Part shown: positions 3,692-16,126 of the stretch, piece by piece
Layout: each line of letters begins with the position of its first letter
Position numbering within the stretch: position 1 is the first letter of the stretch
Assembly (NCBI RefSeq): GCF_003330725.1
Contig: NZ_CP030840.1
Location: 3,100,001 to 3,164,000, forward strand
Direction: 5' to 3'
Origin: Acidisarcina polymorpha
GTDB lineage: Bacteria; Acidobacteriota; Terriglobia; Terriglobales; Acidobacteriaceae
Length of the DNA: 64,000 bases
The notes under the pieces: model-generated
Seen by the model: only the letters and a program-made list of their open reading frames with translations
Told to the model about the DNA's origin: nothing
The model's database searches: none
Translations under genes and position numbers: made by a program

Positions 3692-4035
3692 GTGTGCTTC
3701 CTGTTTTGGCGCTGGTCACAAACCCAATAGCGATCTGGCCTTTGGGGATCCTTATAGAAGGGTATCTCGGGAGGTGCGTTGGCACCAAGATCGAGAATAC
3801 CGTCCCTTGGGAGGGGTCGCCAGTTCGGGTTGCGGTCGTCTGCCCAGGAATCTCATTCCCTTTTGACACAATTCTCAAGGTGGGCCTCCGCCCGTGGAGG
3901 CCCCGTTGAGAAACATCCTGCGGCGCACGAAGGGCACGGTCAGCGCAGTGTTGAGTCCAACCAGTCGGGACATTGGCTTCCTTCCGATATAACACTTGCC
4001 CAGAAATCGCATCTTAGAGGAGCAGGAGGCGGGAC
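3692..4035. other. Divergent intergenic region
   Basis: No coding sequence is convincing here; short ORFs on both strands lack ribosome sites and family motifs. It holds the long inverted repeat at 3873-3911 and the ribosome site of the small gene at 4036. Confidence 0.5.
3873..3911. repeat. Long two-part hairpin
   Basis: GGGCCTCC at 3882-3889 pairs perfectly with GGAGGCCC at 3896-3903 around a six-base loop, and TCTCAA at 3873-3878 pairs with TTGAGA at 3906-3911. There is no T-tract after it, and it lies about 125 bases before a gene start, so a structured leader or transcript-stabilising element is as likely as a terminator. Confidence 0.5.
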
Positions 4036-4242
4036 ATGGCAAAACTAAGCACATCGAAGAAGAACGCCGAGCCAAAGGGCGAATTTGGGCTGCCAGAGGA
4101 ACGCAAATATCCAATGCCGGACGCCGCTCATGCCAAAAATGCGAAAGCGCGAGCTTCGCAAGCGGAGAATGCGGGTAAGCTGAGTGCGGCTGACAAGAAA
4201 AAGGTCGACAGCAAGGCGGACAAAGTTCTCAAGAAGAAGTGA
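4036..4242 (+). CDS. Small lysine/alanine-rich protein, DUF6582-like
   Basis: 68 residues, strongly basic, ending in KKK. The centre (FGLPEERKYPMPDAAHAKNAKARASQ) resembles the small domain in which a Pro-rich strand is followed by D-A-x-H-x-x-N-A-x-A-R, known from phage and bacterial proteins (DUF6582); the match is from memory of the motif. A strong ribosome site (AGGAGGCGG) sits before the ATG. Function is unknown; the charge suggests nucleic-acid contact but nothing shows it. Single-gene unit. Confidence 0.65.
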   Translation: MAKLSTSKKNAEPKGEFGLPEERKYPMPDAAHAKNAKARASQAENAGKLSAADKKKVDSKADKVLKKK

Positions 4243-4499
4243 GATCGGCTCCTTTGTACTTGTTTACCCCGTTGGGAGTGAAATCCCTCTTTACTCGCAC
4301 TGCGCGGACAGTGTTGCGCGGTAAATGGGGTTGAACGACCAGACCACCGAAGCAGATGACAACACTAGCGAAAAGTCGCAAACGTCTCGGTTACCCAACG
4401 CCCTCACGAAATTTGATCGCTTCCATTCGGCCATGCGGATTTTTTCCAACATCTATCGTGTCGAATCTGTCTTCGTTCCTAGATGAACAAGGAGAGCGT

Positions 4500-5360
4500 A
4501 TGAGCAGTGCCGAAAACTGGGCTAGTGCGACAAATGTCATCGAAGAACACCGCGCCGAGGCGAACGGCCAAACAATCCATTACCTCAGGGCCGGAGTGGG
4601 ACCGGCACTGGTGCTCGTGCACGGATATCCCGAGTCTTCTCTGACCTGGTACAGGATCATGTCGGAGCTTACGGTGAAATTTACTGTGATCGCACCGGAC
4701 ACCAGGGGAACCGGGCAGTCTTCCTTGGCCGACGGCTTCTCGATCGAAGACATGGCCGACGACATCTATGAACTCGTCAAGTCCCTTGGCTTTAAGGATG
4801 TCCGTCTCGTAGGCCATGACTTCGGCGTTCAAATCGTGAGCGCCTATGCGGCAAAGCACCGCGACGATGTGTCGGCACTGGTGGTCATCGAGTCGCCCCT
4901 CTCAGGGTTCGGCCTAGAGGAGCTGTTTGCCAGTTTCTGGCACTTCGGCTTCTTGGCATCACCCTTTGCGGAGTTGCTGATTACCGGCAAAGAGAAGGAG
5001 TTCTTCAGTGAATTCGCTTTTGGAGACTTCGTCTTCCGCAAAGAAGCCTTTCCGCAGGCGGACATCGATAGGTACATCGCTGACCAGACCCGTCCTGGTC
5101 GGCTCAAGGCAGGCTTTGCTTACTACCGCGCTCTGATCGCCGGCAGAGACTTCTTTAGCAAGACAGTGGCACCACCCTGGACCTTCCCGGTACTCGCCAT
5201 CGACGGCGATCACTCCGTCAACGGACTCACCGCAAAGTCATTCGAACAAGTCGCACCGAAGCTGAGATCGGTCATCGCAGCCGACTGTGGCCACTTCGTG
5301 CAGGAGGAGCAGCCGGACTTCTTGGTAAAGACGCTCTTGGACTTCCTTCCCACGGAGTGA
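4500..5360 (+). CDS. Alpha/beta hydrolase, epoxide hydrolase / dehalogenase type
   Basis: 286 residues from the ATG at 4500, chosen over an earlier in-frame start at 4356 because AAGGAG precedes it and the fold begins soon after. Motifs in order: oxyanion region HGYPESSLTW; nucleophile elbow GHDFGVQ with Asp instead of Ser, the hallmark of epoxide hydrolases and haloalkane/haloacetate dehalogenases; an acid near DGDHS; and the catalytic His in CGHFVQEEQP. It is cytoplasmic with no signal peptide. Which substrate class it serves cannot be read from sequence. It stands alone. Confidence 0.85.
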   Translation: MSSAENWASATNVIEEHRAEANGQTIHYLRAGVGPALVLVHGYPESSLTWYRIMSELTVKFTVIAPDTRGTGQSSLADGFSIEDMADDIYELVKSLGFKDVRLVGHDFGVQIVSAYAAKHRDDVSALVVIESPLSGFGLEELFASFWHFGFLASPFAELLITGKEKEFFSEFAFGDFVFRKEAFPQADIDRYIADQTRPGRLKAGFAYYRALIAGRDFFSKTVAPPWTFPVLAIDGDHSVNGLTAKSFEQVAPKLRSVIAADCGHFVQEEQPDFLVKTLLDFLPTE

Positions 5361-5884
5361 CGACTACTCTTGGCCAAAACCTTACAAGTTGCGCGGGTCA
5401 TTGCCTTACTGGAGGTGACCTGAGAACCCCTCACTACGAGAGCAATTTGGAATGTCTTCTCGAGCTGGTCGGGGCCGGTTTCAGTCACCCTCATAGCCTA
5501 GTTCCGCACCAGCACCTTGTCCCGACTAGCCTATCGAGAATCGCTGCTCCGAGATATCATCGATCGCGTCGCGGCCATGAGTAAATCTCATTTTGCTCTG
5601 ACGCGGTTAGGAAACACCCACGGGCGGCTTTTCAGAAAAAGTTGCTCTACCCCAAGAGGACATGGAGATAGCTGAGTCGCCCAATGCACGCGAGTCCAAC
5701 TCAGACCTCAAATCATCCGCGCATAAGAACCGGAGCATCACGATATGGAATGTATTTCTCCTCATCGCCCGATGATGGGAAATAGGGAGCAAGCGAGCTG
5801 ATGACGCCGCGGCTCGCGGGCAACCCTCCTTCTGTTGGTCGCTCCCGACGCGCGACATTGTGACTTCCGATCATTGACGTGCCG
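5361..5884. other. Intergenic stretch without recognised gene
   Basis: Between convergent genes. Short ORFs exist on both strands but none has a ribosome site or recognisable motif. Confidence 0.4.
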
Positions 5885-6886
5885 CTAGACATTGTTGGCG
5901 CTGTCACCGCCGGTGACATCGTAGGTCGCGCCTGAAATCATTCGTGCCGCGTCTGACGCAAGGAACACGACGACCGGCGACATCTCTGACGGATCGATCC
6001 ATGGGACACCGAGAATTGATTTGCTCTGGAGCACCTTACGAGCCGCTTCTTCATCCAAGGCTTTGTCGCCAGTTGGCTCGCGTCCCGCCACTTGCAGAGC
6101 TTGCACATAGCGTTCTTCATGGCGCGTGAGCGGTGTATCGATCAATCCTGGCACCAGGCAATTTACGGTGACGCCATGCGGCCCCAGTTCCATCGCCGCA
6201 GACTTCATCAAGCCAATGATGCCCCACTTCGATGCTGAATACGCCGAACCGTTCAAGGTGCCGTGTCGTCCCTGAGTTGATGTCGTCATGATGATACGGC
6301 CGTGTTTCTGCTGCACCATATACGGCGCAAAGGCACGGAGAGCGTTAGCTGTGCCCGTCAAATTGACGTCGATCTGGATATGCCAATCAGGGTCTTCCAT
6401 CTGAAGTAGCGGACGGAACGCCTGGATTCCAGCGTTGGCAAAGAGGATATCGATGTGGCCCAACTCCGCGTTCATCTTCTCTGCCGCGATGCGCAGTGCG
6501 GGAAGGTCGCGCTGGTCCAGCACGAAGCTTCTCCATTGGACACCTGCGCTCCTGACCATCTCACCGGTCTGATCAAGTTCGGCACGGGTAGCAGGTTCCA
6601 CGCCCGAACGCGGATCGACGACGGCACAGATGTCGATTCCAACCACGTGAGCTCCGCTCTGCGCCAGAGCCGCCGCTGCTGCGCGCCCAATTCCGCGTGC
6701 CGCTCCAGTGACAACAGCTACTCTGCCGTTGAGAATGCCTCCCCAAGGTTCTGTCTTCGCCTGTGTCATCTGACCCTCCATATTGCTGGTGAGTGAAATT
6801 GCGCTCAGGGCTGCCGATCCGGCTGCTAGAAAAAACCTGCGCGATATGGCAGCCTTCGCTGCGTGTTGCTTTCTATTGGACGGCAT
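5885..6886 (-). CDS. Short-chain dehydrogenase, Tat-exported, mycofactocin-like subgroup
   Basis: 333 residues. The ATG at 6886 is preferred over the longer ORF start (7045), which would run through the upstream cupin gene; it has a GAGGGG site and opens a Tat signal (SRRFFLAAGSAAL). Then come the cofactor loop TGAARGIG (about 60-67), FANAGI, and the catalytic YSASK. The insert after the first beta-alpha-beta unit (DICAVVDPRSG...) resembles SDRs that use a tightly held NAD, which would suit an exported enzyme. Last gene of a six-gene minus-strand operon; gap to the cupin before it is 43 bases. Confidence 0.85.
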   Translation of the reverse strand: MPSNRKQHAAKAAISRRFFLAAGSAALSAISLTSNMEGQMTQAKTEPWGGILNGRVAVVTGAARGIGRAAAAALAQSGAHVVGIDICAVVDPRSGVEPATRAELDQTGEMVRSAGVQWRSFVLDQRDLPALRIAAEKMNAELGHIDILFANAGIQAFRPLLQMEDPDWHIQIDVNLTGTANALRAFAPYMVQQKHGRIIMTTSTQGRHGTLNGSAYSASKWGIIGLMKSAAMELGPHGVTVNCLVPGLIDTPLTRHEERYVQALQVAGREPTGDKALDEEAARKVLQSKSILGVPWIDPSEMSPVVVFLASDAARMISGATYDVTGGDSANNV

Positions 6887-6929
6887 AATCGCCCCTCGTT
6901 CCTTGAACATTCGGTTGAGCAGAGATGAT

Positions 6930-7388
6930 TCAATATTCAGATTTCTCGCCGGCAGCAGGAACCGAGGTCGGAACGCCTGGAGTGCCGGCATAGGTAATGA
7001 GGAGCACGGTGGGTCCGTCGCCCGACTCGCCTCGGTGAACATCATCCACCGACTCTCCTACGGCTTGCCCCTGGCGAACAACCTGTGTCTTGCCGCTGGC
7101 TTTGTCATGCAGCGTAAGAGTGCCTGAGAGCACATAGACGACATTTGGAAATGGATGCGTGTGCCACGGCAGAGCGGCATGTGGTGCTATTGTCAGCTTG
7201 ATTGTCGTGAGTTGCGGCTGGCCGGTGGGGTAGTGCGTGTAAGGCTTGCAATTCCACGATTGGGTGGTTTGCAGCAAGATTTCCCGGTGACCACTTGCAA
7301 CGCCATTCGCGCGGGTTTGAGCGAATACCGCTGTGAGAGATGCCAGGACGAGGGCGGTAGTTCCGATCGTGCGGTATCTAGAAATCAT
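6930..7388 (-). CDS. Secreted cupin-domain protein
   Basis: 152 residues with a signal peptide (hydrophobic 9-22, ending AVFAQ). A single cupin barrel follows: PWHTHPFPNVVYVLSGTLTL carries the HxH...E-like metal motif, and VDDVHRG the second-motif His. Likely a small periplasmic metal-bound cupin; substrate unknown. It lies 50 bases after the sorbosone-type dehydrogenase and 43 before the SDR in the redox operon. Confidence 0.8.
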   Translation of the reverse strand: MISRYRTIGTTALVLASLTAVFAQTRANGVASGHREILLQTTQSWNCKPYTHYPTGQPQLTTIKLTIAPHAALPWHTHPFPNVVYVLSGTLTLHDKASGKTQVVRQGQAVGESVDDVHRGESGDGPTVLLITYAGTPGVPTSVPAAGEKSEY

Positions 7389-7438
7389 GTCGGTCGTCTC
7401 CGTGTGGATTGTTCTCTACATAGACTCAATATGTCTCG

Positions 7439-8827
7439 CTATTTGCCGGTGTAAGATACGCGCCAGACGCTGCGAGAGCCGTCATCTGTAACGTAGAGAG
7501 CGCCATCATGACCTACTGCTACCCCTACTGGACGGCCCCATACCTGTCCATCATGGGTGACAAATCCGGTAAGAAAATCCTCATACTCACCAGTGGCTTT
7601 GCCGTTTTTCATGGGAACCCGGATGACTTCATAGCCCCCACGGTTCGCACGATTCCAGGAACCGTGTTCGGCCGCGAACCCATCGCCGCCGTATAGGGAT
7701 GGGAAGGTGGATTTGCTGGTGGGATAGAAGGCCATTCCAAGGGAGGCCATATGGGGCTGAATCAGGACATCCGGAGTAATGACCTTGGATTTGAGTTCTG
7801 GATGAGTGCCCATCAATCTCGGATCCTGATGTCCCCCCATATAGAACCAGGGCCAGCCATAGAAGCCGCCTTCTTTGACGGATGTCACATAATCCGGAAC
7901 GAGATTGTTGCCCAGAGCGTCGCGCTCGTTGGTTGAGCACCAAAGCTGACCGGTAACAGAGTTGATCGCCTCACCGACGCAATTACGAATCCCGTATGCG
8001 TATACCTCGACGAATTTGCCTTCTGGGGTGTACTCAAGCACATCGGCCCGATGAAACTCATTGGGATGCGTGTCAGGATCATCGGCATTCGATCCACTTC
8101 CAACGGACACGAGCATATGCCTACCGTCGGCGGAGAAGACGACGTCCCGCGTCCAGTGGCCGCCGCCGCGCAGTTGAGCGTAGCCGGGAAGATCGGGCAC
8201 GATCGTCTCGGGCGCTGTGTTAGCCTTCAGGTCTCCCGGCTTGTAGGCGAATCGGACGACGGTCGTCGCGTTTCCGACGTAGATCCATTGGGGATTCGCG
8301 CCTGCGGGATAAAACGCAATACCAAAGGGATGATCGAGGCCGGTAGCGTAGGTGCTGACGGTAGCCGCTTTCCCTTCGGCAGAGACGCCGCGTAGCACCA
8401 GTAGAGATCCAGCCTGCGAGTCTGCTACGAAGAGATCGCCGTTAGGTGCAGCATGGATGATGCGGGGCATCACGAAGGTTCCAGAGGTAGGCGCGTGTAT
8501 CTCTTTTTTGTTTTCGGATCGCTGCATAGGAGCAGCTGCATCGCCACCCGCATACAGCTGAACCGTAAAACCCGCAGGGGCGATCGGCCACGCCCCCTCC
8601 GGTCTTTGGACAAGAGAAGGCCCGTTGTCCACTGACTCAGAGGGTTTCGGCTTCGGCAGGTCGGCCACGGTGATCTTCCGTCGGACACCCGGCTTCTGCT
8701 GCGTGTAGTCGGCAAAGGCAGCTTGACCGGTGATCGTCTGCTGGGCATGGAGCGCAGACGGAAGAAGCGCTGCGAAGGCGAGAGCAGCGAATGCCTGAAA
8801 TTTTGCGAAAAGTGGACGTTTCATCAT
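7439..8827 (-). CDS. Sorbosone dehydrogenase-like / PQQ-type sugar dehydrogenase
   Basis: 462 residues from the ATG at 8827 (GGAG six bases before; the longer ORF reaches into the neighbouring gene). Signal peptide to about ALHAQ. The rest is a six-bladed propeller of the soluble glucose/sorbosone dehydrogenase group: YVGNATTVVRF, GGGHWTRDVVFSADGRHML with the conserved His, YAYGIRN, FAAEHGSWNR, and a final DGALYVTDDGSRSVWR blade. Such enzymes oxidise aldoses or aldehydes in the periplasm using PQQ. No PQQ biosynthesis gene is in the window. Middle of the redox operon. Confidence 0.85.
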   Translation of the reverse strand: MMKRPLFAKFQAFAALAFAALLPSALHAQQTITGQAAFADYTQQKPGVRRKITVADLPKPKPSESVDNGPSLVQRPEGAWPIAPAGFTVQLYAGGDAAAPMQRSENKKEIHAPTSGTFVMPRIIHAAPNGDLFVADSQAGSLLVLRGVSAEGKAATVSTYATGLDHPFGIAFYPAGANPQWIYVGNATTVVRFAYKPGDLKANTAPETIVPDLPGYAQLRGGGHWTRDVVFSADGRHMLVSVGSGSNADDPDTHPNEFHRADVLEYTPEGKFVEVYAYGIRNCVGEAINSVTGQLWCSTNERDALGNNLVPDYVTSVKEGGFYGWPWFYMGGHQDPRLMGTHPELKSKVITPDVLIQPHMASLGMAFYPTSKSTFPSLYGGDGFAAEHGSWNRANRGGYEVIRVPMKNGKATGEYEDFLTGFVTHDGQVWGRPVGVAVGHDGALYVTDDGSRSVWRVSYTGK

Positions 8828-8885
8828 CCTTATCTCCGAATCCGTATTCTTGGCGACCGTCGATCGTGCAATGTTTGACAGTGCC

Positions 8886-9773
8886 TTAACCACGCAGACT
8901 TGCGGGAGGATGGCTTACAGCAGCCAACCTGTCGTATGCAGCCTGAGGAAGCTCGAGGCCGGCGGCAGCGATGTTCTCTTCCAGGTGCTTGGCCGAGGAC
9001 GTTCCAGGGATAGGCAGGATCACCTTCGAACGCTTGAGCAGCCAGGCCAATGCGACTTGCAAAGGAGTTGCATTAAGATCGTTCGCAAGTTTCTTGATCG
9101 CGTCATGTGCCTCCTTTGCCTGACCGAGCGGTGCCCACGGAAGGAAAGCGATGTCGTTCTGCTCGCAGTAATCCACGATGAAGTCAGATTCCGGATCGGC
9201 GAAGCTATAACGGTTCTGCACAGAAACAATCGGCACGATCCTGCGTGCCCTCTCCACATGTTCGCGAGTCACATTCGAGAGTGCGACATGGCGGATCTTA
9301 CCCTCTTCGCGCAGTTCGGCCAGCGCTTCGATCGACGCCTCGAAGGACACGGCATTGTCGGGAGCGTGCAGTTGATAGACATCGATACGATCCAGACGCA
9401 GGCGCTTCAAACTTCCCTCGAGTGCTTCGGTGAGGTGTTTTGGGCTGGCATTGTGCGTCCATTGGCCCGGACCCGGTCGCTCCCATCCACCCTTGGTTGC
9501 GATCACCAAACCTGCTGGATATGGATAGAGTGCTTCTGCGATTAACTCTTCCGATATGCCTGGGCCATAGGAGTCGGCCGTGTCGATCAGGTTCACGCCG
9601 AGTTCGATCGCGAGGCGCAGCGTCGCGAGAGAAGCAGCTTTGTCTGCGGGAGGTCCCCACACGCCTTGTCCTGTAATCCGCATTGCTCCATAACCCATCC
9701 GATTTGCTGTAAGATCGCCACCGATGATCAACGTGCCAGCAGCTGCGGCTGAGAGAATCTGTTCCTTATTCAT
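8886..9773 (-). CDS. Aldo/keto reductase
   Basis: 295 residues, cytoplasmic. The AKR tetrad is visible: Asp and Tyr in NLIDTADSYGPG, Lys in VIATKGGW, His in VYQLHAPD. The C-terminal NADP-binding part has ILPIPGTSSAKHLEEN. It would reduce an aldehyde or ketone with NADPH, or the reverse. Start has AAGGAGC just upstream. Third gene of the operon, 55 bases after the Tat-exported AKR and 58 before the sorbosone dehydrogenase. Confidence 0.88.
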   Translation of the reverse strand: MNKEQILSAAAAGTLIIGGDLTANRMGYGAMRITGQGVWGPPADKAASLATLRLAIELGVNLIDTADSYGPGISEELIAEALYPYPAGLVIATKGGWERPGPGQWTHNASPKHLTEALEGSLKRLRLDRIDVYQLHAPDNAVSFEASIEALAELREEGKIRHVALSNVTREHVERARRIVPIVSVQNRYSFADPESDFIVDYCEQNDIAFLPWAPLGQAKEAHDAIKKLANDLNATPLQVALAWLLKRSKVILPIPGTSSAKHLEENIAAAGLELPQAAYDRLAAVSHPPASLRG

Positions 9774-9828
9774 AAATCTGCTCCTTTTTCGTGTCGAAAT
9801 TTTGAATGGTTGACCTCAGCGCCCGCGC

Positions 9829-10980
9829 TCAGGCAGGCACTGGCGCATTTTGCTCGATCAGATTCTGAACTTTGAGCTCTGCCCAAAATTGGGCCGGTAC
9901 CTTGGTCTGCATGGAGGTGTAATCCGCAAGGATCTGCTGCTCACTGCTGGCGCCGACAACAAGAGCCGCAGCGATGTCAGGCGCTGCGGAAAATTGAAGC
10001 GCCGCAGTTCGGAGGTCAACACCATGATTACTCGCAACCTCGCGAAGCCTCTTGCGTTTCTCAAGAAACGCCGGCGGAATCTGGTAGGACTCTTTTCCGT
10101 AGTTGTAACGCGGACTACCCGAGATAAACCCGGCATTGAGCGATGATCCGATCACGAAAGACACGTTCTTTGCCTTAGCCGCCGGAAACACCTGATCCAA
10201 TGCATTCTTGTGGTCGATTAGAGAATACTGAGAGGCCAGAAGACATATATCGGGATCCGCAACTTCAAGCAAGCGCATGATTGGCTCTGGCGTGTTGACG
10301 CCAATGCCCCAGCCCTTGATCAGTCCCTCTTCCCGCATGCGGGTAAGTTCGGGAAATGCGCCCTTTCGCGCGATTTCGAACTGCTCCTGCCAGGGTGTCG
10401 GAAGATATTTGTTATCCGGTGAGATGTCGTGCACGAAGGCAATGTCCAGGCTATCGAGGCCGAGTCTTTGCAGGCTGTCTTCAATGGAGCGTCGCACGCC
10501 AGACGCGGTGTAGTCGTAGACCACATCGTTCGGTGACGGAGAAAACGGGAAATACTCCTTATTTTTCGCGGTCTTCGATGCCTTGAGGAGCTTGCCGACC
10601 TTCGAAGAGAGGACGAATTCGCTGCGATTCTTATTGTGAAGAAAGTTGCCATACCTACGTTCCGCCAATCCCAATCCGTACCACGGAGCCATGTCGTAAT
10701 AGCGAACCCCGGCATTCCAGGCGGCTTCGATGGTGGTATACGCATCTCTGTCGGTGACGACCGCGAACTCATTTCCGAGCGGGACCCCTCCGATACCAAA
10801 CTTGAACGGTGGTTTGTAGTGCCCTTTGTCGGCGCTGCTAACAGTCTGTTCCATGGTGTTACCCCCCTCATTTACGATTAGTGCACTTGCCACTGAAGTT
10901 GTTCCGGGCAGAAATACTGTTCCCAGTGCCATGGCACCTCCGTTGACAGCTACCTTCAAGAAGTCTCTTCTCGTGTTCAT
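9829..10980 (-). CDS. Aldo/keto reductase with Tat signal, D-threo-aldose dehydrogenase-like
   Basis: 383 residues. The start at 10980 has GAGGAG before it and opens a Tat signal (NTRRDFLKVAVNGGAM, then an apolar run). The mature part is an AKR: VRYYDMAPWYGLGLAERRYG, VLSSKVGK, IAFVHDIS, and a C-terminal NADP site (AALVVGASSEQQILADY). The pattern resembles D-threo-aldose 1-dehydrogenases (L-fucose/galactose dehydrogenases). It overlaps the stop of the upstream cupin by four bases (ATGA), so the two are translationally coupled. Export of an NAD(P)-dependent AKR is unusual and implies folding with its cofactor before export. Confidence 0.85.
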   Translation of the reverse strand: MNTRRDFLKVAVNGGAMALGTVFLPGTTSVASALIVNEGGNTMEQTVSSADKGHYKPPFKFGIGGVPLGNEFAVVTDRDAYTTIEAAWNAGVRYYDMAPWYGLGLAERRYGNFLHNKNRSEFVLSSKVGKLLKASKTAKNKEYFPFSPSPNDVVYDYTASGVRRSIEDSLQRLGLDSLDIAFVHDISPDNKYLPTPWQEQFEIARKGAFPELTRMREEGLIKGWGIGVNTPEPIMRLLEVADPDICLLASQYSLIDHKNALDQVFPAAKAKNVSFVIGSSLNAGFISGSPRYNYGKESYQIPPAFLEKRKRLREVASNHGVDLRTAALQFSAAPDIAAALVVGASSEQQILADYTSMQTKVPAQFWAELKVQNLIEQNAPVPA

Positions 10981-11504
10981 CGAAATCTCCTCTCTATGTT
11001 TTGGGCAGTGGGCTCCCAGAAGTCGTCGGGCAGATTGACAACGATTGGCTCTGGCGTACTTCGCACGACCACCCATCGAAATGAATTCTCTTTCGATGGA
11101 TTCAGCTCCTGATGTGGCAACCAGCTCGGCACATGCAGAAAGTCACCCGCGCCTACAGCGACCGAGTGCTCCCCGAAGTTGCCCCAGCGCACACAAGCCT
11201 CTCCTTCAAGCACGTAAACGACGGTGTCCTGTTCGCCGTGATGGTGAATACCGGTCTTCGCTGAAGGCTCGACCACAAATATGCCCGCCCACAGCGAGGA
11301 CACGATGCCATTCATTGCTGCAATGGCGGACATCCGTAGCGATCCTGAAGTCTGCTGGGTTTCGCTGCTCAGTTCAGCGGGACGTACGACTCTGATCGCT
11401 GAGATCAATTCATATTGAGATCCCATTTGGATTGCGGCTTCCTCTTGCATGACAGCCGGATAAGCGATTGGGGGCGTAAGCGAATCATCGAGTTTGCTTG
11501 CCAT
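10977..11504 (-). CDS. Cupin-domain protein
   Basis: 175 residues, cytoplasmic, one cupin barrel: GIHHHGEQDTVVYVLEGEACV carries the three metal histidines and Glu, and FLHVPSWLPHQE the fourth ligand. First gene of the six-gene operon and coupled to the next by ATGA. The 23-bp operator-like sequence 11544-11566 lies 40 bases upstream. Possibly a small-molecule dioxygenase or isomerase; not identifiable further. Confidence 0.82.
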   Translation of the reverse strand: MASKLDDSLTPPIAYPAVMQEEAAIQMGSQYELISAIRVVRPAELSSETQQTSGSLRMSAIAAMNGIVSSLWAGIFVVEPSAKTGIHHHGEQDTVVYVLEGEACVRWGNFGEHSVAVGAGDFLHVPSWLPHQELNPSKENSFRWVVVRSTPEPIVVNLPDDFWEPTAQNIERRFR

Positions 11505-11543: not shown

Positions 11544-11566
11544 TGTACTGTACCGTACATTACAAT
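11544..11566. promoter_or_regulatory. Operator-like site A of the TetR-linked redox operon
   Basis: Matches the site at 12964-12986 at 20 of 23 bases. The core TGTACTGTACCGTACA is an imperfect palindrome, followed by TTACAAT. It lies 40 bases before the start of the cupin-led operon. The proposed regulator is the TetR protein at 13135-13755; this is inference from the shared site. Confidence 0.6.
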
Positions 11567-11986
11567 CTGATGCGCTTCAAAGGAGATTCGACGCAGCAAT
11601 AATCCAAGACGTCCGCAAAAAGTCTCAGCAAGTTTTTAAAGTCGGGAGGGGACGCAGCGAGTCGGGGCGATAGTTATTTGATTCTCGAGGGTTTCGCGCC
11701 GAAAGTGCCGAAGATCTCGTTCTTAAATCGGATATCTGCAGCTCGCTATCCTTCGGGCAATTTCCACGTCGAACAACCGCCATACGCTACGGATCCTGTG
11801 CCAGTTCCAAAAGCGCACCGAATGAAAAATCGCGATTTTGACGCGGCCAAGGAGAACAACCCTCCTGGAAAGGCGAGAGCTGATGTCTTCCTGAAATCAC
11901 TTGCCGAACTCAAGGGTGCTGAAATTCACTAGTCGGCATGGAGTCCTACCTCGTCAGAAAGACTCTTTGTCGTTACCGAAATCGCC
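11567..11986. other. Intergenic stretch without recognised gene
   Basis: A plus-strand ORF at 11678-11932 has a TTG start, no ribosome site and no recognisable family, so it is not called. Nothing else is seen. Confidence 0.4.
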
Positions 11987-12799
11987 CTAGACCTGCGAAC
12001 AAGCTAGAGGATGAAGCACGAGGCTTGTCACATTTGACACCGTCGGCGGGTTTAGATTGAACCTCGAATCGGCAGAAAGTTTCTTCCAATCGGGATCGGC
12101 GGAGAACTTTTCCCAATCCGCCTCAAGCGACGTCATGTCAGGAAAGCTGAGCATATAGGTAAGATTCGGAAGATTCGGTCCAACCAATGCGTCGGCGTAG
12201 AAAACTCCCGTGGCGCCGGCTTTTGCGAAAATGCCGAACTCGCCGTTATGAAACATCTCCACCTTACGGACGTGATCCATGTTTGTAGGCGACTGATACT
12301 GGCGAAGGTGATAGATGCGTTTTCCCTTGGCTGAGGCGGACGCTGGCGGAGTGACCTTGGGATATCCCGGGAACGCCCGCAATAGGGTACTTTCGATACG
12401 AATGAAGGGGGGCGTGGCTGCGGGAGCATCCCAGAACGGCGCAGCGGCCTTCAGGAACAAGTCGTCATTCGCCAACTCGAGGTCAGCTGTAACCAGGGTC
12501 TCGATCTTCAGACTTGGCATCAGCAGGTAATAGGACGGGCTGTCCGGCCCAAAATAAACGGAGAATGCACCGACCGGCCCAATGCCAAGCCGGTTCAGTG
12601 CCGGAATGAGTGCATCGGCAAAGAAGTCAGTGGTGAGCTTTACGCCCGGTCCACTCGCCAGATGGTACCGGCGCAGATCCATATATTCCGGGGCAGATAT
12701 GTTCGCAGCAGGCTCAGTTTGAGCAAGGAGATCGCCCGCAGCGGCAAGCGAGAGGGTCGAAGCCGCGAAAGAACTGGAAAGAAAAGTACGACGGTCCAA
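11987..12799 (-). CDS. NIPSNAP-domain protein, exported
   Basis: 270 residues if started at the TTG at 12799, which has AGGAG seven bases upstream and begins a Tat-like signal (DRRTFLSSSFAAST... ending DLLAQ). The upstream in-frame ATG at 12862 lacks a good site. Two NIPSNAP-like ferredoxin-fold repeats follow: YMDLRRYHLASG and, later, IYHLRQYQSPTNMDHVRKVEMFHNGEFGIF. The biochemical role of secreted NIPSNAP proteins is unknown. It is divergent from the TetR gene, and the palindrome at 12964 lies between them. Confidence 0.8.
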   Translation of the reverse strand: MDRRTFLSSSFAASTLSLAAAGDLLAQTEPAANISAPEYMDLRRYHLASGPGVKLTTDFFADALIPALNRLGIGPVGAFSVYFGPDSPSYYLLMPSLKIETLVTADLELANDDLFLKAAAPFWDAPAATPPFIRIESTLLRAFPGYPKVTPPASASAKGKRIYHLRQYQSPTNMDHVRKVEMFHNGEFGIFAKAGATGVFYADALVGPNLPNLTYMLSFPDMTSLEADWEKFSADPDWKKLSADSRFNLNPPTVSNVTSLVLHPLACSQV

Positions 12800-12963
12800 A
12801 TGAAGTCTCCTTGGAATTAGATAACCGCGGTCTGAACAAAATTTTGGTGCGACCACCGACAACGTTCTTCGCGCAGCTAAAAGGAAGGACGGTTATCCGA
12901 GAAGTGCCGGCAGCATCGGTCGTATGCCAATTCTCCGTCTGTACCGCCTTTCGTTTTCCTCAG

Positions 12964-12986
12964 CGTACTGTACAGTACGTTACAAT
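12964..12986. promoter_or_regulatory. Operator-like site B with perfect palindrome
   Basis: CGTACTGTACAGTACG at 12964-12979 is a perfect 16-bp palindrome followed by TTACAAT, which could serve as a -10 box for the tetR gene on the plus strand. It lies between the divergent NIPSNAP and TetR genes. The same sequence with three changes precedes the redox operon at 11544, so autoregulation plus control of both neighbours is likely. Confidence 0.7.
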
Positions 12987-13134: not shown

Positions 13135-13755
13135 ATGCCTAAGAAGCGGTCGCGAGGGGACATTCGAAGCAGTAAGCTTCAGAACGTGGCAGCTGATTTG
13201 TTTTTAGAACGCGGCTATGAGGGCGTCTCCATTGACAAAATCGTCGAGTTGGCCGGCGGTTCGAAGAGTACGATTTACAGCGAATTCGGTGGAAAGTGCG
13301 GCCTGTTCATCAGTAGTATCGAGCACCTGTGTCGGGAGGCGAATGAACCGCTCGCGGAGATTGATTACACAGGATTGAGCCTTGAAGCTAGTTTGAAGAA
13401 GCTTTCCTTTCATATCCTGAAGCTCATCACCGCGAAGCGGTCCGTGGAACTCCACCGTCTCGCCATTGGCGAGGCCGCGAACTGTCCGGAAGTAGGCGAG
13501 GCATGGTATACGTATGGTCCCGCTCGAACAGCCTCATTCATCCGATCGTTGCTGGAAAGCCACAAGGAAGAGTTGCCGAAGACACCGATTCCAATGGAAC
13601 GGATAGCGGTACTTCTTCATGACTCATTGACAGGAGACGTGCTTTACCGTCTTTTGGCAGGAGTTGGTAAACACGAAAACGATGCCGAACTCGAGCGCTT
13701 AGCTTGCGCCGCCGTCGACGTCATTCTCGGAACTGTTAGCCTCCGCAGAATCTGA
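13135..13755 (+). CDS. TetR-family repressor
   Basis: 206 residues from the ATG at 13135 (GGAG six bases upstream; the ATG at 13105 has no site). N-terminal helix-turn-helix: LQNVAADLFLERGYEGVSIDKIVELAGGSKSTIYSEFGGKCGLF (about 12-56), then a helical ligand-binding domain. Likely represses the divergent NIPSNAP gene, itself and the six-gene redox operon through the paired palindromes at 12964 and 11544. The ligand is unknown; the operon content suggests a sugar, aldehyde or aromatic. Confidence 0.88.
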   Translation: MPKKRSRGDIRSSKLQNVAADLFLERGYEGVSIDKIVELAGGSKSTIYSEFGGKCGLFISSIEHLCREANEPLAEIDYTGLSLEASLKKLSFHILKLITAKRSVELHRLAIGEAANCPEVGEAWYTYGPARTASFIRSLLESHKEELPKTPIPMERIAVLLHDSLTGDVLYRLLAGVGKHENDAELERLACAAVDVILGTVSLRRI

Positions 13756-14436: not shown

Positions 14437-14997
14437 TTACTCACGATTTTGACCCAAGCCACGAAAGGCGAGCGTAAGAATTCTCTTAATCCGCGCCTCT
14501 CCGACTGGCGTAGGGGGAATTCGCCACAGCAGTCCTATGAATACTAGGAAGTCTTCGGGGTCGGTTCCAGGATGAATCTCGCCCGAACTCTCACATGCAC
14601 GCATGAGCTGGCGGACCGCACCCAACATGGGCGTATAGGTCTCTCGAATATCCTGATCTGATTGTGCCGCATGAACGATATCTGCAACTCCATATTTCAT
14701 CTTTAATGACTGCGCGAACCGATCGCACCAAGTTCGAAAAGCCTTGAGCGGTGTGTGCTTGCCCAACAGCGTCGGAGCAAGCGCCACCAACGTATCAATC
14801 TCTTTCCGATACACCCCAAGCACCAAGGATTCGCGGCTCGGAAAGTGACGATAGAGCGTACCGGCTCCAACTCCGGCAGCCTTAGCGATGGAGTTGAGGG
14901 ATGCCAACGGATCAGCGGCGAGCGAGTCGCGCGCCACATCCAGGATGCGGTCTCTGTTTGCACGCGCGTCGGCGCGCAGAAGTTCGTCGTCGCCCAT
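14437..14997 (-). CDS. TetR-family repressor
   Basis: 186 residues. Helix-turn-helix: RDRILDVARDSLAADPLASLNSIAKAAGVGAGTLYRHFPSRESL (about 14-58), then the effector domain ending in a helix rich in Ile/Leu. An AAGGAAGG site precedes the ATG. Divergent from the aldo/keto reductase at 15083; the 85-bp gap holds two copies of CGGAGAGTTNTCC, so it probably represses that reductase and itself. Short for the family but complete. Confidence 0.88.
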   Translation of the reverse strand: MGDDELLRADARANRDRILDVARDSLAADPLASLNSIAKAAGVGAGTLYRHFPSRESLVLGVYRKEIDTLVALAPTLLGKHTPLKAFRTWCDRFAQSLKMKYGVADIVHAAQSDQDIRETYTPMLGAVRQLMRACESSGEIHPGTDPEDFLVFIGLLWRIPPTPVGEARIKRILTLAFRGLGQNRE

Positions 14998-15014
14998 AAC
15001 CTTCCTTGACTAAT

Positions 15015-15059
15015 CGGAGAGTTCTCCGTTAAGCTCCACGATAACCGGAGAGTTATCCA
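15015..15059. promoter_or_regulatory. Two operator-like repeats between tetR and aldo/keto reductase
   Basis: Copy 1, CGGAGAGTTCTCCG at 15015-15028, is a perfect 6-bp inverted repeat with a 2-bp centre. Copy 2 at 15046-15059, CGGAGAGTTATCCA, is an imperfect repeat in the same orientation. Centre-to-centre distance is 31 bp, about three helical turns. Proposed target of the TetR protein at 14437-14997. Confidence 0.65.
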
Positions 15060-15082
15060 TTTCTATCCGGTTTGGAGGAAAG

Positions 15083-16126
15083 ATGCAATATAGAAAGCTT
15101 GGCAACACCGGTCTGGACGTCTCTCCTATTTGCATCGGATGTATGGGATTTGGTGATCCCGCCCGCGCCTACCCTAGTTGGTCACTCGACGAGGAAGCGA
15201 GCCGTGCGCTGATCCGCCACGCAATCGAGGTGGGAATCAACTTCTTCGACACCGCCAACATGTATTCAAACGGGGGGAGCGAGGAGATTGTGGGTAGGGC
15301 GCTAAAGGATTTCACCAACCGCGATAGTGTTGTCATCGCCACCAAGGTAGCTCCGGCTACGCATAACGGCCCCAACGCTATTGGGCTGTCGCGGAAAGCG
15401 ATCATGACAGAGATTGACCACAGCCTGCGGCGGCTTGGCACCGACTATGTCGATCTGTATCAAATTCATCGTCGCGATCAGCTCACTCCTTGGGAAGAAA
15501 CCCTAGAGGCACTTCACGATTTGGTCAAAATGGGCAAAGTGCGCTACCTCGGCGCTTCTTCCATGAAGGCATGGGAGTTCAGTAAAGCGTTGCACCTCCA
15601 GAAAGCAAATGGATGGGCACGCTTTGTATCCTTACAGGACACCTACAATCTCCTCACGCGCGAAGAAGAACGCGAGATGCTTCCGCTGTGCATCGATGAA
15701 GGTGTTCAGACTGTCGTTTACAGTCCGCTGGCGCGCGGCCGCCTCGCTCGATCGTGGGGAGAAAGCTCGGCAAGGTCGGAAACTGAAGCCGCCGCCGGTC
15801 ATAGCGACGACACAAACGCGGAAAGCGATCAAAGGATCGTCGAGGCTGTGGGCGCAGTCGCCACAGAACGTGGCGTGAGCCCAGCGAGCGTTGCATTAGC
15901 TTGGCTTCGTACCAAGCCTGTCGTTGCCGCGCCCATCGTAGGTGCACTCAAGATCAAGCACATCGACGATGCCATCGCGTCGCTCGCGGTCAACTTGACG
16001 GATGAAGAGGTTGGCCGGCTGGAGTCGCCTTATACGCCGCGTGTGGATTATCAAGGTGTATCTGACCCAGCCATGCTGACCCGTGCGGTGGAGGCGACAA
16101 CCGGATTTCGGGCATCCGCCCCCTGA
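15083..16126 (+). CDS. Aldo/keto reductase, YajO/PhdYeiE-like single-domain enzyme
   Basis: 347 residues, with GGAGG before the start. The tetrad is visible: Asp and Tyr in NFFDTANMYSNGGSEEIVG, Lys in VIATKVAP, His in DLYQIHRRD. C-terminal NADP loop near APIVGALKIKHIDDAI. Cytoplasmic reductase of aldehydes or ketones. The divergent TetR gene and the operator pair between them suggest an inducible detoxification or catabolic reductase. Base use does not stand out from its neighbours. Confidence 0.9.
   Translation: MQYRKLGNTGLDVSPICIGCMGFGDPARAYPSWSLDEEASRALIRHAIEVGINFFDTANMYSNGGSEEIVGRALKDFTNRDSVVIATKVAPATHNGPNAIGLSRKAIMTEIDHSLRRLGTDYVDLYQIHRRDQLTPWEETLEALHDLVKMGKVRYLGASSMKAWEFSKALHLQKANGWARFVSLQDTYNLLTREEEREMLPLCIDEGVQTVVYSPLARGRLARSWGESSARSETEAAAGHSDDTNAESDQRIVEAVGAVATERGVSPASVALAWLRTKPVVAAPIVGALKIKHIDDAIASLAVNLTDEEVGRLESPYTPRVDYQGVSDPAMLTRAVEATTGFRASAP

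Follow-up and report, generated by a model that had tools for sequence, protein, structure and literature searches.

Among TetR-family regulators of solved structure, the closest to the protein considered here is NalC of Pseudomonas aeruginosa (8KE8), which is described as a local repressor whose inverted repeat overlaps the putative promoters of both its own gene and its target (PMC3290565). Pentachlorophenol, in high micromolar amounts, releases NalC, and the authors of that work read this as mimicry of a phenolic effector; in the same study a 21-bp fragment on its own was not bound by NalC (PMC3290565). In a separate study, nalC mutations occurred in eight of 10 cinnamaldehyde-selected mutants, and the NalC pathway is stated not to raise cinnamaldehyde resistance specifically (PMC9774640). 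Two further systems offer points of comparison. The regulator DarR is reported to form a dimer of dimers on overlapping palindromes with TXC/GXA half-sites (PMC10636190). In Devosia, deoxynivalenol is epimerized by a quinone-dependent dehydrogenase together with AKR13B2/AKR6D1, AKR13B2 being one reductase that turns 3-keto-deoxynivalenol into the epimer after oxidation by the dehydrogenase (PMC11011506).

The window analysed here, a stretch of 64,000 nucleotides from the soil acidobacterium Acidisarcina polymorpha (Acidobacteriaceae), holds what comparison of sequences indicates is very probably a local autoregulated circuit, in which an AefR-like TetR, predicted to be a repressor released by a ligand, controls a redox operon and a NIPSNAP gene from two operators. 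The circuit is ordinary in kind, an additional example of a common type of bacterial switch, in which regulator gene and target operon are preceded by one and the same operator sequence. Operator 1 (11544..11564, no strand assigned) stands upstream of the operon, 39 bp from the start codon of its leading gene, a cupin gene, and operator 2 (12964..12984, likewise unstranded) occupies the gap from which NIPSNAP (TTG at 12802, 161 bp away) and tetR (ATG at 13135, 150 bp away) diverge; the two copies are direct repeats flanking NIPSNAP. The first-pass annotation had likewise placed one site before the operon and the other between NIPSNAP and tetR; it had also described the sites as near-identical 23-bp units (11544-11566, TGTACTGTACCGTACATTACAAT; 12964-12986, CGTACTGTACAGTACGTTACAAT) and reported a perfect 16-bp palindrome in the second. 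The two units are indeed identical at 20 of 23 bases, and the palindrome is located at 12964-12979, with eight of eight pairs matched; by eye, the corresponding 16 bp of operator 1 pair at seven of eight positions. A joint pattern allowing up to three mismatches matched twice in the window and never in 100 dinucleotide-preserving shuffles. The repeat is real, but its 23-bp extent is not upheld: the terminal AT is unconserved in relatives, with AAT present in six of 21 aligned sites, and the operator unit appears better described as four half-sites at 5-bp spacing in 19–21 bp (about 21 bp). A promoter scan of the window returned one site, overlapping neither operator, with 1.1 expected from shuffles; in the ortholog loci L020 and L015 a -10-like element (TATAAT or TATAAA) can be seen by eye just past the operator, towards tetR.

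The six operon genes run on the minus strand in the order cupA-AKR1-AKR2-GSDH-cupB-SDR, with one 4-bp overlap and then gaps of 55, 58, 50 and 43 bp; gene starts were set with ortholog support, domains were taken from Pfam, and twin-arginine-like and Sec-like starts were read by eye. The first gene, cupA (10977..11504), encodes a cupin (PF07883, 48.2 bits) and overlaps by 4 bp the start of AKR1 (9829..10980), an aldo/keto reductase with a twin-arginine-like start (RRDFL) whose nearest solved structures are L-galactose dehydrogenases. A second aldo/keto reductase, AKR2 (8886..9773), in which no signal was seen, has AKR13B2 (8HNQ) as its nearest solved structure. Sec-like starts are found in GSDH (7439..8827), a protein of glucose/sorbosone-dehydrogenase type (PF07995, 58.5 bits) whose start was set by orthologs, and in the small cupin CupB (6930..7388; PF07883, 33.7 bits), while the last gene, SDR (5885..6886), encodes a short-chain dehydrogenase (PF00106, 165.6 bits) with a twin-arginine-like start (RRFFL). 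The NIPSNAP-domain protein (11987..12802, minus strand; PF07978, 48.9 bits) also has a twin-arginine-like start, its TTG codon being aligned with the starts of orthologs. By eye, such starts recur in five of five rows for SDR, four of four for NIPSNAP and five of nine for AKR1, the start being unclear or the motif missing in the remaining AKR1 rows. The genes behind the two operators are redox genes, NIPSNAP and tetR, by a Pfam survey that passes over very short genes.

The cofactors of these enzymes were approached through the genome (96.4% complete). Although a mycofactocin-coupled family is the best NCBIfam match of SDR, the score of 266 bits falls below the cut-off of 300 and we did not adopt the assignment; no match to the mycofactocin maturase MftC exceeded its cut-off in this genome. 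The top radical-SAM match, at C1:5791893, adjoins pqqC and is, from that neighbourhood, probably PqqE. PqqC itself scores over its cut-off (321.3 bits), a sign of PQQ synthesis that bears on GSDH, whose similarity to solved PQQ enzymes is too weak for placing PQQ-binding residues.

Across the family the operator takes the form TGTACTGTAC-N-GTACAGTACA, with four GTAC-like half-sites, one per 5 bp. The consensus, TGTACTGTAC-N-KTACRKTACA, comes near to a 21-bp inverted repeat around a variable central base, which amounts to two overlapping 14-bp palindromes offset by five bases; the 16-bp palindrome noted at first is one of the operator's two palindromes. Operator 1 fares better on the long dyad (nine of 10 pairs), and operator 2 pairs at seven of 10 positions on the 21-bp dyad versus eight of eight in the 16-bp palindrome. 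In an alignment of 21 sites, 14 of them distinct, the mean information was 1.87 bits per column in the half-sites, 1.08 in the spacers, 0.33 in the flanks and 0.11 in the central spacer, a contrast between half-sites and spacers that is partly built in because all sites were preselected by core or pattern and five of the 21 were turned to the fitting strand. Near-duplicates (L010, L011, G301, G367, G457, G465) and the sites of G019 and G088, discussed below, were excluded from this alignment.

Conservation was followed in 14 loci carrying an ortholog of the window's TetR, namely 12 from Edaphobacter, Granulicella and one unassigned member of the Acidobacteriaceae (L015–L026, three of the 12 being MAGs) and two from family genomes (L010 from G149, L011 from G098). 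Since L010/L018 and L011/L024 look nearly identical, the 14 correspond to about 12 independent loci. The three-half-site core lies upstream of tetR in all of them, exact in 11 and with one mismatch in L011, L024 and L025, and the 19-bp pattern fits all 14 on one strand. Two operators are present where NIPSNAP separates the operon from tetR (the window, L015, L020 and L022); elsewhere a single operator stands between divergent units, and across it from tetR lie cupA-AKR2-GSDH-cupB-SDR, cupA-AKR1-AKR2, AKR2-GSDH or AKR1 alone. In L025 the GSDH gene lies apart, with its own operator copy in front, and in G293 GSDH faces tetR. These arrangements support the view that operator, regulator and operon remain together in relatives despite changes in gene order. 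Their co-occurrence, together with the confinement of the core to this locus (see below), supports the small regulatory circuit proposed by the first-pass annotation. As to its composition, the operon and tetR stand as named, but the predicted regulon would also take in NIPSNAP and tetR itself, and compared with the 16-bp palindrome the operator extends further and has its centre elsewhere.

Several of the ortholog loci carry further genes. In Edaphobacter aggregans DSM 19364 (L021) an extra operator, at 6422-6440, precedes a 2Fe-2S/FAD/molybdopterin oxidoreductase operon (6847-10934) of three genes, whose domains were scanned on the L020 copies and which we take to be of the PaoABC type; this locus seems to have disrupted or partial copies of cupA and GSDH. 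The same three genes follow tetR in L020, and no sequence with 13 of the 16 half-site bases was found before them there. In Edaphobacter modestus (L016) a protein of PQQ alcohol-dehydrogenase type that carries a cytochrome c domain (3975-5990) adjoins AKR2, in the place that GSDH has elsewhere, while L019 has a multicopper oxidase within the GSDH cluster and L023 a GH92 gene after GSDH. A block of four genes, which by eye encode a LysR regulator, an NAD(P)H-dependent reductase-like protein and two more products, lies between operon and tetR in L015 (4816-7834) and beyond tetR in L022 (9697-12707), which points to local shuffling around the regulator.

The four half-sites at 5-bp spacing, present in all 21 aligned sites, give the overlapping-palindrome layout of dimer-of-dimers operators, for which QacR provides a second TetR-family comparison alongside DarR. 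The four TAC/GTA half-sites overlap similarly to those of DarR operators, and by analogy with the dimer of dimers that DarR forms on its overlapping palindromes, two dimers per operator are likely. DarR differs in its ligand, c-di-AMP, which belongs to another class, and in its regulon, and the two-dimer stoichiometry would be carried over to the present operators. It is possible, though we would not expect it, that the circuit is real and that each operator takes one dimer, on the 16-bp palindrome, with the fourth half-site belonging to a promoter in which TTACAAT serves as the -10 element. Operator 2 is perfect across 16 bp, and TACAAT in both window sites resembles a -10 box, yet the fourth half-site is also present in all 14 ortholog loci, whose sites had been found with a three-half-site core, seven of the 21 aligned sites carry a full GTAC there, and AAT follows it in just the six mentioned above. 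We work with two dimers per operator as the likely arrangement.

We propose that, without ligand, TetR bound to operator 2 would silence its own promoter and probably that of the divergent NIPSNAP gene as well, while TetR bound to operator 1 would silence cupA-AKR1-AKR2-GSDH-cupB-SDR, the two overlapping 14-bp palindromes formed by the four half-sites suiting two dimers at each operator. Release of the repressor would be brought about by a small hydrophobic molecule, for which a phenolic or carbonyl compound, or a product of it, is the most likely candidate; the operon enzymes would then oxidize and reduce that compound, in part beyond the cytoplasm and in part within the cytosol. The non-cytoplasmic part would comprise AKR1, SDR and NIPSNAP, with their twin-arginine-like starts, and GSDH and CupB, with their Sec-like starts; AKR2 would be cytosolic. 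In this scheme the sites, their uniqueness in the genome, their conservation and their co-occurrence with the regulator are solid, whereas binding by the TetR, repression as its direction, the two dimers, export, ligand and chemistry are inferred.

For the substrate we favour carbonyl or phenolic compounds, handled by a redox cassette that is probably in part exported, a reading suggested by NalC, AKR13B2, pqqC, the PQQ dehydrogenase of L016 and the multicopper oxidase of L019 taken together. The guess at the ligand draws on the likeness to NalC, the best solved-structure match of the TetR (E 2.6e-21), which is aligned over residues 2-143 only. NalC is likewise a local repressor on an inverted repeat, and the first half of its operator, AGAACTGT, has ACTGT in common with the half TGTACTGTAC here (PMC3290565). 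NalC, in contrast, governs PA3720-armR and thereby an efflux pump, and we did not file the window's TetR as NalC, the operator-linked genes by Pfam, very short ones aside, being redox genes, NIPSNAP and tetR and not efflux control of the PA3720-armR kind. The likeness to Devosia lies in the pairing of an oxidizing dehydrogenase with an aldo/keto reductase, as described in that work (PMC11011506): AKR2 is nearest to AKR13B2, and the PQQ-type dehydrogenase with a cytochrome c domain adjoins AKR2 in L016. In Pfam, however, GSDH and the L016 enzyme fall into different families. A further paper reportedly deals with deoxynivalenol epimerization in Devosia.

Somewhat doubtful, but to be weighed, is the reading that TetR is an activator, or that the operon serves sugar (aldose or keto-sugar) catabolism rather than the handling of phenolic or carbonyl compounds. 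The GSDH domain, the likeness of AKR1 to L-galactose dehydrogenases and the GH92 gene after GSDH in L023 would all fit it; against these stand the description of NalC as a repressor in the work introduced above, the lack of any sugar transporter by Pfam among the six operon genes, and the position of the L021 site before an operon that is presumably PaoABC-like. The points against sugar catabolism are not decisive for the substrate, and sugar catabolism is possible. A more far-reaching extension of the favoured carbonyl or phenolic reading, which we consider improbable, would have the repressor respond to a secondary metabolite of fungi or plants, a phenolic or keto compound, and would make the cassette an oxidize-then-reduce, epimerizing detoxification module under one four-half-site operator, spread patchily as a unit among soil acidobacteria. 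If this were true, detoxification would consist in oxidation of an alcohol outside the cytoplasm by a quinoprotein-type enzyme and reduction of the ketone by AKR13-like and exported reductases.

The regulator gene itself (13135..13755, plus strand) encodes, in a scan from 13105, a TetR_N domain (PF00440, 41 bits against a cut-off of 24) and an AefR-like C-terminal domain, TetR_C_7 (PF14246, 43.7 bits against 22), and its ATG at 13135 agrees with the starts of the orthologs. The recognition helix reads GGSKST.Y..F without variation in 14 compared sequences, the window's among them; an AlphaFold model made from 14 sequences (mean pLDDT 58.2, pTM 0.47) was too poor for use. The genome, searched as 7,600,726 bases (7.6 Mb) in five contigs, contains the exact core GTACNGTACNGTAC at both window sites only. 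With one mismatch the core is found in eight places, namely the two exact sites, two places offset by 5 bp within those sites, and four elsewhere, which we take to be at chance level because a reversed control pattern gives 10 places at the same tolerance; by eye no further half-sites were seen at these four (L005–L008), and we did not retain them as operators. The 19-bp form RTACNGTACNKTACNKTAC has two matches in the genome, both at the window locus, and its control none. The motif is thus far from the widespread recurrence that the first-pass annotation had named as counting against its proposal.

Seven TetR_C_7 genes are encoded in the genome, and a second TetR gene (14437-14997) follows 0.7 kb further on, so that some other regulator, be it this neighbour or an unlinked AefR-like paralog, might bind the sites. 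We regard this as very unlikely: the exact core lies nowhere else in the genome, no operator site was found within the fetched 3.3 kb around the six TetR_C_7 genes other than tetR at 13135-13755, and the 14 ortholog loci hold the sites and have no match to the second TetR at E ≤ 1e-15 (with L010 and L011 covering only 3.6 kb). The second TetR was not kept as a candidate regulator on the last of these grounds. Its gene, which encodes an SbtR-like C domain, is divergent from a third aldo/keto reductase gene, the pair spanning 14437-16126. Least probable of all, to the point of being remote, is that the repeated 23 bp are a remnant of duplication accompanying the insertion of NIPSNAP, conserved by descent only, as the direct repeats around NIPSNAP and the single copy between divergent genes where NIPSNAP was not found could suggest, but against which stand the excess of information in the half-sites over spacers and flanks (in part built in by the pattern) and the sites before GSDH in L025 and before the molybdenum oxidoreductase operon in L021. 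The second operator may nonetheless have originated by duplication, and two operators around an intervening gene suggest how a local regulon grows. Preferring the local TetR as the regulator, we have here a closely defined operator and a predicted regulon, backed by comparison, for an Acidobacteriaceae TetR, and a clean operator that is ready as a reporter for finding the inducer of the redox cassette. Among the literature matches listed, none was seen to describe a comparable circuit in Acidobacteriaceae, and the matches listed for the operator strings look unrelated by title, being mostly animal work.

The specificity of the operator was also followed across genomes. Among 396 genomes of the phylum the TetR ortholog (E ≤ 1e-30) is present in eight, and the 19-bp site lies beside it in all eight, a count that is not independent because RTACNGTACNKTACNKTAC was drawn up from the ortholog-locus sites and these loci overlap the sample; G497 and G293 contributed nothing to the pattern, and the sites of both fit. 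Overall the site occurs in 10 of the 396 genomes, and in only two of the 388 without the ortholog (G019 and G336), the match in G336 falling within a coding frame for what by eye looks like valyl-tRNA synthetase. Among 150 genomes of the family, RTACNGTACNKTACNKTAC is found in five: G000 (the window's genome), G149 and G098, which have the TetR ortholog, together with G019 and G088. Neither the 150 nor the 396 genomes contain a match to the reversed control. In G019 (L030) and G088 (L029) the sequence, at about 1501-1519, is GTACCGTACCGTACGGTAC, in the gap between an AefR-like TetR gene and a divergent ECF-sigma-like gene (by eye). This TetR resembles the window's in its TetR_C_7 domain (113.6 bits in the L030 copy) and its operator shares the four-half-site layout, but the spacer bases and the target gene differ and the identity to the window's TetR is about 27%.

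Homologues of GSDH are far more widely distributed, occurring in 87 of the 150 family genomes (E ≤ 1e-60). Six that lie away from a tetR ortholog were inspected, drawn mainly from the highest entries among the 87 genomes and including the additional copies that G149 and the window's genome carry, and the fetched 14–18 kb around them held no sequence with 13 of the 16 half-site bases. As far as seen, the operator appears to track the regulator and not the enzyme. TetR homologues about 32–34% identical to the window's protein (in G040, and as second copies in G000 and G098) were excluded from the orthologs, and the 19-bp site was not found in G040. A TetR gene in L014 (G098:C155) whose product shows about 33% identity to the window's TetR is preceded, at 626-639, by GTACCGTATGGTAC, which suggests related operators for other members of the same TetR group.
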